Origin: Leptolyngbya sp. 'hensonii'
Lineage (GTDB): Bacteria > Cyanobacteriota > Cyanobacteriia > GCF-001939115
Assembly: GCF_001939115.1 (NCBI RefSeq)
Contig: NZ_MQTZ01000058.1
Location: 1 to 52,780, forward strand
Direction: 5' to 3'
Length of the DNA: 52,780 nt
The position numbers were made by a program, and so were the translations under genes. The notes below the pieces were generated by a model. The model ran no database searches. It was not told the origin of the DNA and saw only the letters and a program-made list of their open reading frames with translations. Positions 4,621 through 15,279 of this stretch are shown here, in pieces. Within the stretch, counting starts at the first letter, position 1. Every line of letters starts with the position of its first letter.

Positions 4621-4675
4621 TCGAAATATCATTCTGATGCTCCTAGAATAGTTCGATGACCAGAGGGATGATTCC

Positions 4676-5185
4676 ATGCCTCGCTCCTTGAGTGAAAAAT
4701 GTCGTCTTTGTGCCAAGCTCGTTCCGGAACAGGCCCGTCAACTCCACGGCCCTGAAGGAGATGGGTGCTGGAATGATAAACGCTGTCACGATCGTCGGTC
4801 TTACTACCGCCATCGGGGAGTCAAAATCCACAACCAGCGGCAGCGGCGGCAGTCTAAACAACCGATCGATCTGGACCCATTAACCACCCTGGCGATACCA
4901 GTGCCTGCCCTGCCTGCTGCTGTGATTCACTGGTATCGCCAGACTAAAGATTCGCCGCTCCATGCGATTGGTGCGGAGCTGTGGATAGGCAACGATCGGG
5001 TCGCCAAGATTGAACCAGTGCATTGCCTGGGGCTGACCGAAACTCAAGTGAAAACCCTGCTGGTGCGAATTCTGGAAGGTTTTTCCCAGCATAGTGGTCT
5101 GCAAGTGACACGCTTCCGTTCAGCGGTGGAGCTCCATCCCCTCAACTGTCCAATTGTGCCCTGCCCCCTCCATCCCCACACCTGA
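4676..5185 (+). CDS. Hypothetical protein with Cys-rich N terminus, 169 aa
   Basis: The first 40 residues contain CRLCAKL, CW and KRCHDRRSYYRHR, giving four cysteines and a histidine spaced like a small zinc ribbon, followed by a run rich in arginine and glutamine (about 45-62). The remainder (about 70-165) is mixed alpha/beta with a TETQVKTLLVRILEGF helix and no motif I know. A nucleic-acid-binding role would fit the basic, zinc-like N terminus but is inference. The gene stops three bases before the ATG of the next one, so the two are almost certainly translationally coupled. It is paired with the 121-aa gene upstream. Confidence 0.6.
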   Translation: MPRSLSEKCRLCAKLVPEQARQLHGPEGDGCWNDKRCHDRRSYYRHRGVKIHNQRQRRQSKQPIDLDPLTTLAIPVPALPAAVIHWYRQTKDSPLHAIGAELWIGNDRVAKIEPVHCLGLTETQVKTLLVRILEGFSQHSGLQVTRFRSAVELHPLNCPIVPCPLHPHT

Positions 5186-13355: not shown

Positions 13356-13384
13356 TAGACAAAGTCATACTACGTCTGTAGTAT
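13356..13384 (+). promoter_or_regulatory. Sigma70-like promoter with a GTAGTAT dyad operator
   Basis: TAGACA (13356-13361) and TAGTAT (13379-13384) are 17 bases apart. A perfect 7-bp dyad, ATACTAC-gtct-GTAGTAT (13367-13384), covers the spacer and -10. It resembles the TACTAC...GTAGTA operators of BlaI/MecI-type repressors. The same GTAGTAT half-site occurs twice in the promoter of the tRNA-like cluster at 14746-14763. Confidence 0.55.
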
Positions 13385-14271: not shown

Positions 14272-14658
14272 ATGTTGAAGTTGCAATACACCGAAAACGG
14301 ACTGTTCATGGAACGGGTCAGTGGCTCTGTTGAAACCATGGTGGCTCAGCGAACTGCTCTGGTGTTACGGGCAGGCCGATCGCTCCATCTGCAACTGGGG
14401 CGGGCCTCCTTCCTGCTCCCTGCGGATATGCCCACCCTGGCCGAACTGGAGGTCCTGATCTGGATGGAGCAGTCCTCACAGATCACGATTTGTCTCGTTG
14501 ATCTGGACACCGTGGAAGTGAGTGTTGCTGGGATTTGGGTGACGGAGCAGGTGGATGCGGAAGACGGCATCTTTCTGGCAACGACACCGATCGCGATCGA
14601 GGCCCTGATTGAACAACTCTGGCAACAAGCCCAGAAAGCAATCTCTTCCACGGCCTGA
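14272..14658 (+). CDS. Conserved cyanobacterial hypothetical protein, 128 aa
   Basis: I recognise the overall pattern as a cyanobacteria-restricted family but know no function. It starts MLKLQYTENGLFMERV, has a central ASFLLPADMPTLAELE segment, and ends with a long helix (ALIEQLWQQAQKAISS). It has no signal peptide or membrane segment. AGGAGG lies before ATG 14272, giving a strong start. It follows the HNH gene by 30 bases on the same strand and ends ten bases before a perfect hairpin, so the pair forms a two-gene unit immediately upstream of the promoter for the tRNA-like genes. Confidence 0.75.
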   Translation: MLKLQYTENGLFMERVSGSVETMVAQRTALVLRAGRSLHLQLGRASFLLPADMPTLAELEVLIWMEQSSQITICLVDLDTVEVSVAGIWVTEQVDAEDGIFLATTPIAIEALIEQLWQQAQKAISSTA

Positions 14659-14736: not shown

Positions 14737-14766
14737 TTGACAATTGTAGTATATTAGTAGTATGTA
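14737..14766 (+). promoter_or_regulatory. Promoter of the tRNA-like cluster with two GTAGTAT half-sites
   Basis: A consensus -35 TTGACA (14737-14742) is followed after 18 bases by TATGTA (14761-14766). Between and into the -10 lie two direct GTAGTAT copies (14746-14752, 14757-14763), 11 bp apart, that is one helical turn. The same heptamer forms the dyad at 13367-13384. Confidence 0.65.
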
Positions 14767-14788
14767 TGTAATACAGTATCGATATCTA

Positions 14789-14860
14789 AGTTTGGTCGAA
14801 GCAAGCCGTCTGTAAAACGGATGTCCCCCTGTCCCGTAGGTTCAAATCCTACCCAGTTCT
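14789..14860 (+). tRNA. Degenerate tRNA-like gene, Tyr(GTA) anticodon arm
   Basis: The anticodon arm CCGT-CTGTAAA-ACGG (14806-14820) has anticodon GTA. The T arm GTAGG-TTCAAAT-CCTAC (14836-14852) is perfect. The D arm is missing: only about ten bases separate the weak acceptor strand (14789-14795) from the anticodon arm. The acceptor stem pairs at only about four positions, and no long variable arm typical of bacterial tRNA-Tyr is seen. It is probably a pseudo-tRNA or a highly reduced one. Confidence 0.45.
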
Positions 14861-14872
14861 CCCGGCCCTTAT

Positions 14873-14957
14873 GGAGAGATGGCCATTGGCAACGCAAGCT
14901 GTTTGCTAAACAGTCGTGGATGAAGGTCCACTGTGGGTTCGACTCCCACTCTCTCCG
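14873..14957 (+). tRNA. tRNA-Ser(GCT), shortened D arm
   Basis: The acceptor GGAGAGA pairs perfectly with TCTCTCC (14950-14956), with discriminator G. Anticodon stem CTGT/ACAG plus a G-T pair closes a TTGCTAA loop with anticodon GCT (14905-14907). The variable arm GTGGA...TCCAC identifies a class II tRNA, and the T arm carries TTCGACT. The D arm is reduced to GCC-ATT-GGC, several bases shorter than usual. No CCA is encoded. Confidence 0.8.
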
Positions 14958-14962
14958 CCTTT

Positions 14963-15061
14963 GAGGACGTGGTGTAACTGGATGAACCCATCAGTCTCGG
15001 AAACCGAAAAGTGGGGATATTGCCTGTGGCAACACTCCCCAAACAAATCCCTCCGTTCTCG
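14963..15061 (+). tRNA. tRNA-like gene, Pro(CGG) anticodon loop, expanded core
   Basis: GAGGACG (14963-14969) and CGTTCTC (15054-15060) give a complete 7-bp acceptor stem (one G-T pair) with discriminator G. TCAGT-CTCGGAA-ACCGA (14991-15007) is an anticodon arm with one A-C mismatch and anticodon CGG. Where the variable and T arms should be there is a nested hairpin, TGGGGA...TCCCCA enclosing TTGCC-TGT-GGCAA (15012-15041), then AACAAAT. No normal T stem forms. The intact acceptor contrasts with the disordered core. Confidence 0.45.
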
Positions 15062-15114
15062 CCCATTGTCGAGGCTGTCCGGCATGGACGAAGAAAGTGT
15101 CTTCAAAAAATCAT

Positions 15115-15279
15115 GGGTCTGTAGCTCTAGTGGCAGAGCACCTAAACCACCTTGTACCCTAACCGGCAAAGCTTACATACTAACTTCCTTTTAAGAAGCA
15201 AAAGCAGCTTTGTGTACTTGTACGAGGGATGAGTGCAATTCTCATCAGGAGGAGATCGGTTCGACTCCGACCAGATCCA
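15115..15279 (+). tRNA. tRNA-like gene, Lys(TTT) type, with large insertions
   Basis: GGGTCTG (15115-15121) pairs with CAGATCC (15272-15278). The D arm GCTC...GAGC (15124-15139) and a T arm with TTCGACT (15255-15271) are good. A CTTC-CTTTTAA-GAAG arm with anticodon TTT lies at 15184-15198. About 44 extra bases separate the D and anticodon arms, and about 50 extra bases lie before the T arm, including the stem GATGAG/CTCATC. The insertions are too short for a known group I intron. It is either a decayed gene or an unusual precursor that needs excision. Confidence 0.45.

Follow-up and report, generated by a model that had tools for sequence, protein, structure and literature searches.

That bacterial Y RNAs mimic tRNAs is already known. 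One described system is the Y RNA YrlA with Rsr/Ro60. PMC7790460 suggests the Salmonella YrlA head as a possible inhibitor of an anticodon nuclease, reports that the nuclease examined did not cleave the tRNA-like domain, and states that in Deinococcus a Y RNA tethers Rsr to PNPase. A second relevant system is the 26-gene trn operon of Anabaena sp. PCC 7120. According to PMC10272220, the repressor TrcR protects TGTAGTAT, which overlaps the -10 box of the operon; without TrcR, alr0856 (HNH), alr0857 and trn are all upregulated, and trn is induced by antibiotics against translation.

We examined a 52,780-nucleotide stretch (the window), which is the whole contig C58 of the 5.94-Mb, 77-contig genome of Leptolyngbya sp. 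'hensonii'. Like the trn operon of PCC 7120 and plasmid tRNA arrays, it combines HNH and alr0857-family genes, a putative TrcR operator (TGTAGTAT) and tandem tRNAs in the same unit order; unlike them, it holds four units only, the last one a chimera. The features are as follows.

13377..13384, +, TGTAGTAT, TrcR-operator-like site 328 nt upstream of the HNH gene (motif from PMC10272220)
13705..14241, +, HNH endonuclease gene, alr0856-like, of the kind adjoining trn arrays (Pfam HNH, 3.4e-16)
14272..14658, +, alr0857-family gene (NCBIfam NF045647, 5e-40, above cut-off)
14737..14763, +, promoter-like sequence, read from the sequence: TTGACA at 14737-14742, -10-like TAGTAT at 14758-14763, 15-nt spacer
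14745-14752, +, TGTAGTAT within the promoter-like sequence, read from the sequence
14776..14860, +, tRNA-Tyr-like unit, eroded acceptor, D region present, from alignment (Rfam tRNA 18.4 bits, below gathering 29)
14873..14959, +, tRNA-Ser(GCT), near normal, from ARAGORN (Rfam tRNA 37.1 bits, over gathering 29)
14963..15061, +, unit derived from tRNA-Arg(ACG), 24-nt T-arm insert, triplet CGG, from alignment (Rfam tRNA 28.0 bits, gathering 29)
15115..15279, +, chimera with tRNA-Ala-like shell, 165 nt (23 copies aligned; 10-copy consensus fold)
15115-15121/15272-15278, +, chimera acceptor with G3:U70; A73 at 15279
15124-15139, +, chimera D arm
15149..15228, +, Y-RNA-type frame in the chimera: P1, CCTAAC, P2, TTACATACT ... 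AGCTTTG, TACTTG, P1'
15184..15198, +, frame cargo, anticodon-type hairpin CTTC-CTTTTAA-GAAG with U33 and triplet UUU (sequence and homologues)
15228..15246, +, extra hairpin of the chimera, GATGAG-TGCAATT-CTCATC, covarying in 10 copies
15255-15271, +, chimera T arm

The initial annotation, made from the sequence, had described a run of four tRNA-like units behind a single strong promoter. The tandem run is real (14776-15279, +), and of the promoter it is a promoter-like sequence that can be read upstream of the units. TGTAGTAT occurs three times in the window (+ 13377, + 14745 and - 29656), the two plus-strand sites preceding the HNH gene and the array. Among NCBIfam families the HNH gene comes closest to the HNH part of IscB, though it stays below cut-off. 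The proposed link between this HNH neighbour and cyanobacterial plasmid tRNA arrays was borne out: 15 plasmid records from Nostoc, Tolypothrix, Calothrix and Kovacikia contain array-like DNA, with long tRNA arrays in those inspected, and the window's own genes match the HNH and alr0857 families. The same genome carries more array pieces on contigs C68, C37 and C30, including a C68 stretch with 28 ARAGORN genes. As fuller arrays exist elsewhere in the genome, the array in the window is a reduced copy. Judged by its genes and its predicted TrcR site, it is a shrunken version of the TrcR-controlled, stress-induced cyanobacterial trn operon.

Across the whole window, ARAGORN reports one tRNA, the Ser(GCT) unit. 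Covariance scoring, which had been proposed as a check, agrees: Ser reaches the Rfam gathering score for tRNA, Tyr and Arg miss it, and the chimera has no tRNA match. Ser had been called nearly normal with a shortened D arm; both points hold, but the short arm is not peculiar to the window and, being common to the plasmid arrays L010 and L011 (L numbers denote our loci), it is a lineage trait. The Tyr unit was said to lack a D arm, yet it retains a stretch resembling a D arm, which can be aligned with a relative; it is the acceptor that is eroded, and the unit starts at about 14776, before the start first assigned. The supposed Pro unit turned out on alignment to be related to the array tRNA-Arg(ACG), with an 87% match to the array Arg on C68. 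Its core and that of the supposed Lys unit are indeed enlarged, and the acceptors of both, described as perfect, keep their 7-bp stems (GAGGACG/CGTTCTC and GGGTCTG/CAGATCC) but with one G:U each. Arg units with an insert are also present in L009 and L012, though at a different place: there the array tRNA-Arg(ACG) measures 97-100 nt, and its variable region holds the repeat-like insert TTCGCGTAGCG.

We infer that the Tyr and Arg units, with their scores below gathering, are decaying. Decay had been offered for the whole run; on that reading an old mobile element would carry all four units as degenerating tRNA genes, and the loss of most array units, which leaves only four, would fit this, as would the ending of the window chimera, which reads ACTA (no encoded CCA) where several homologues encode ACCA. 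For the fourth unit this reading is refuted, since the unit is conserved, keeps its acceptor and covaries; as an account of all four units it is improbable. Homologous loci of this unit, at which simple decay had been expected to reveal intact tRNAs, carry the same swollen RNA.

The fourth unit is, as far as alignment and predicted folding can tell, a conserved chimera, in which a Y-RNA-type module stands in for the anticodon arm of a tRNA-Ala-like shell. It matches 24 of 388 genomes (blastn, E<=0.001), other genera included, 15 of them with one piece of at least 120 bases and 3 more in two pieces, the remainder being fragments. The 10-copy consensus contains the acceptor, both the D and the T arm, the extra hairpin and two inner helices; of its 45 pairs, 12 show two-sided changes. 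The acceptor is unchanged in 10/10 copies, while overall identity falls to about 75%; its pairs are invariant and therefore show conservation, not covariation. Single-copy folding z-scores are weak (-1.76 and -2.84), and the structural case rests on covariation. In 14 of 18 homologous loci scanned at least five ARAGORN tRNAs surround the chimera, and in 10 it stands directly after Ala(UGC).

G3:U70 and A73 are determinants for AlaRS. Both were found by eye in 21 of the 23 aligned chimera copies, and in 10/10 of the fold set; the two exceptions are damaged copies, one without the 3' acceptor (G303b) and one internally deleted (G137). The chimera RNA may be chargeable by AlaRS. A G3:U70 acceptor of the alanine type joined to an additional domain recalls tmRNA, and the chimera could be a small tmRNA-like rescue or alanine-tailing RNA, with an alanine-accepting end and a functional domain. 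The retained G3:U70 and A73 speak for such a role, as does a weak match to tmRNA of 13.4 bits (E 0.0035, 801 bases searched). That score is far under the gathering value of 47, leaving no match above cut-off, and tmRNA itself was rejected; ARAGORN reports no tmRNA, and the sister modules are without such a shell, so that we consider a tmRNA-like function very improbable.

In the chimera, the loop of the inner hairpin is 7 nt long and includes U33. The triplet at its apex is UUU in the window copy, GUU in most homologues and GCU in one (G189); the C37 copy is without a 7-nt U33 loop, and in G288, G335 and G211 a whole tRNA-like sequence takes the place of the hairpin. The identification as Lys thus falls, and a tRNA-Lys with an intron is also out, because the triplet is not conserved and the insert is a widespread frame.

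This frame has the layout P1, CCYAAC, P2, YTACATACT, cargo, P2', AACTTG, P1'. With one mismatch allowed, the pattern of its 5' half is present in 34/388 genomes and the reversed control pattern in 0/388. A chance motif is out on the basis of this control; the reversed loci gave 7 matches at up to 4 mismatches. The exact motif was found in at least 111 stretches of genome contigs, mostly cyanobacteria among those listed, and had 0 matches in viral contigs; blastn against phages also gave no match, and a phage origin of chimera or frame was discarded. A local finder based on pairing counted 459 modules in the collected loci (a redundant count); copies of the frame that lie outside arrays number in the hundreds. 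From 239 distinct 5' motifs we obtained 202 distinct frames, the 3' side anchored by sequence alone. In these, P1 positions form standard pairs at a mean of 0.947 (highest value among 300 shuffles 0.803), and two-sided changes are frequent there; P2 reaches 0.821 vs at most 0.767 and is largely invariant, its last tested pair failing (0.38). The pairing statistics show the module to be a covarying, predicted two-helix frame. Frames outside cyanobacteria were seen in Parabeggiatoa (with an H69-71 head), Thiomargarita and a Bacteroidia MAG (with tRNA and permuted heads; L106, L147, L161).

The frame is linked to a 477-aa protein family, encoded within 2.5 kb of modules in 63/112 loci. By sequence the family has a weak match to PDB TROVE chains (phmmer 6e-4) and does not reach Pfam TROVE (PF05731). 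An AlphaFold model (36 sequences, pLDDT 84) has as its top Foldseek match Ro60 with RNA (1yvp, 3.7e-12, TM 0.68), with Deinococcus Rsr at rank 8 (2nvo, 1.4e-10). The modelled fold identifies the neighbour as Ro60-like, with a predicted TROVE HEAT-repeat ring and vWA domain. Such genes occur in 38/388 genomes, frames in 34 and both in 30 (Fisher p 3.8e-33, genomes treated as independent); 4 genomes have a frame without Ro60, and 8 have Ro60 without a strict frame. In the 56 loci with a long Ro60 gene, 193 modules lie on the same strand as the gene and 0 on the opposite one. The window contains no Ro60 gene, and its unit is not adjacent to one; the intact copy of this genome is on contig C43 with two modules upstream, and the stretches read hold ten modules in total. 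Two C-terminal Ro60 remnants adjoin array and modules on C68 (L006 3579-4505).

Taken together, the frame, the Ro60 link and the cargo types lead us to classify the module as of Y-RNA type, an assignment that we consider very probable. Shared with YrlA are a permuted tRNA-like head, an outer stem, the 3' AAcUuG loop, an adjoining Ro60 gene and a link to RNA damage. The frame family differs in its many-module arrays, in its plain tRNA, anticodon-hairpin and 23S heads, in being nested in a tRNA-Ala-like shell, and in having TrcR-like sites where the YrlA system has RtcR. Searched with Rfam YrlA (RF02553), 12 loci gave five modules at 29.6-39.3 bits, below gathering 69, all with permuted-tRNA heads; the alignment runs from T arm through closed acceptor to D arm and includes the 3' AAcUuG. 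The window unit had no match at E<=5; we therefore do not claim YrlA membership, and "Y-RNA-type" refers to the shared frame. In the literature searched, nothing emerged on rRNA-headed frame RNAs or cyanobacterial Y-RNA arrays.

A related unit was seen in the plasmid arrays L010, L011 and L012 near 4640-4800, where ARAGORN calls a tRNA-Pyl(CTA) or Lys(CTT) between Trp and Glu that is in fact a frame-borne tRNA head; at least 80% of it is covered by 10/12 plasmid records. Together with the window chimera, this unit shows that Y-RNA-type modules stand within trn arrays.

What the frames carry is diverse. Our own regex rules sorted the heads of 348 nonredundant modules from 106 named loci into tRNA (152), tRNA without a clear D arm (26) or T arm (12), permuted tRNA (65), 23S H69-71 (29), mini (28), SRL+GAC (12), GGTGCGTA type (7), T-arm types (6) and other (11); tRNA-like heads are thus permuted in 65/348 and of other tRNA types in 190/348. 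At least two main classes share a locus in 75/106 loci. By blastn, the 23S heads correspond to positions 1909-1941 and 1055-1114 of E. coli 23S, and the SRL motif AGTACGAGAGGAA was found by pattern. As rRNA references we used E. coli and three other genomes, because the assembly of this genome, rated 99.98% complete, gave no match when searched for 16S and 23S rRNA; several hits that fell on tRNA genes of the rRNA operon were left out of the rRNA-head count. Several H69-71 cargos begin with one strand of H69 and finish with the other, so in our reading the frame would take the place of the H69 loop. The GGTGCGTA...GCAAGCC heads (L009:9257, L055:297, L213:5728-5877), often with an outer GGCAGTTGTTGC stem, had no match among the rRNA or Rfam families tried.

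Among 51 distinct short cargos, 32 contain a hairpin with a 7-nt loop, 29 of these with T at loop position 2 (shuffles 7.9 and 2.0), counts made with head classes that preceded the 348-module table; 14 of the 29 are chimera-type copies with GTT. In the tRNA heads, 127 close pairs (at most 8 differences) differ at a rate of 0.40 at positions 34-36, 0.20 at the remaining loop positions, 0.02 in the stem and 0.06 outside these, with pairs that are not independent and a search rule that favours the stem and U33 but not the triplet. U33 is kept more than the neighbouring loop positions. Among the tRNA heads nearest Ro60, some with mis-assigned anticodon loops (e.g. L123, L085), 53 distinct heads show 20 triplets, and 51 close pairs, likewise not independent, give 0.405 for the triplet window vs 0.078 for the median window and 0.157 at loop position 33. 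Such hypervariability fits baits that change their loop, and also a loop without constraint. The heads have no free acceptor, and decoding is not expected.

What, then, could these heads be for? New roles for the units, decoys among them, had been suggested at the outset. The former suits the supposed Lys unit, which is conserved and holds a Ro60-linked RNA module, though the units cannot be taken as four altered tRNAs of one kind; a decoy is what we favour, by inference, for the module inside it. Ro60 would bind the frame, and the heads shown on the Ro60 RNPs would serve as baits or decoys, drawing enzymes, toxins or antibiotics directed against tRNA and the A site. By sequence, the exchangeable heads imitate tRNAs and the 23S elements that meet tRNA and factors at the A site: tRNA bodies, permuted elbows, anticodon stem-loops, SRL+GAC and H69-71. 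A TrcR-type repressor, released by translational stress, could have the baits made together with spare tRNAs, and in the chimera one anticodon-hairpin bait would sit on an RNA possibly charged by AlaRS. In support of such control, TGTAGTAT occurs 175 times in 111 loci vs a mean of 47.6 (rank 1 of 150 permuted 8-mers), and TGTAGTA[TC] lies 22-26 nt upstream of the SRL+GAC module in 7/8 such loci among the matches listed (45 of 56).

The main rival is that the RNAs are tethers for RNA quality control, their heads docking Ro60 (with an exonuclease such as PNPase) on enzymes that handle tRNA or rRNA, or gating the RNA channel of Ro60. The heads would then be handles, with an anticodon loop that is simply unconstrained and whose variability could be drift. 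The Deinococcus tether of Rsr and PNPase (PMC7790460) is a precedent, the modelled Ro60 fold of the 477-aa neighbour suits it, and a bL12 (L7/L12) paralog near modules in 34/112 loci (e.g. L134:2319-2711, TIGR00855 over cut-off) could bind the GAC head; the paralog might be a partner of GAC-type heads. Tethering does not readily explain why tRNA and 23S pieces sit on one frame, nor the mini anticodon hairpins with their T at loop position 2, and we hold it to be rather unlikely.

The TGTAGTAT enrichment, the TGTAGTA[TC] sites and the variable loops together lead us to favour baits under TrcR-type control. Some known toxin sites are absent from the heads, which counts against baits. The overall explanation is also weakened by the YrlA scores below gathering, by the lack of a Ro60 gene in the window and by the ACTA ending of the window copy. 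That the YrlA head is left uncut by the Salmonella nuclease, as PMC7790460 reports, allows for competitive inhibition and does not prove baiting. A bait function of the heads, judged by sequence, is hence a reading that we put forward tentatively, at somewhat less than an even chance. The fuller proposal is more speculative still: a Ro60-bound RNA library with a common frame and exchangeable A-site mimics, its loops diversifying in an arms race, would be induced by translational stress along with spare tRNAs and would soak up RNA-cutting toxins and A-site drugs, and the window chimera would graft one such bait onto its alanine-tRNA shell. The best overall explanation, to which we give about an even chance, combines a reduced trn array, a chimera with a Y-RNA-type module and Ro60 RNP baits. 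It would connect Ro60 RNPs with the response to translation inhibitors in which spare tRNAs are made under TrcR control. A frame family with many mimics also makes the question of why Ro60 partner RNAs imitate tRNA directly testable, because the heads name likely targets.

Two further observations concern the surroundings of these elements. Near modules in 81/112 loci (e.g. L192:4478-4687) lies a gene for a conserved 69-aa protein that ends in RPEAVYG and has no Pfam or NCBIfam match. In the window, positions 131-213 match a Group II intron domain (RF00029, 60.7 bits).
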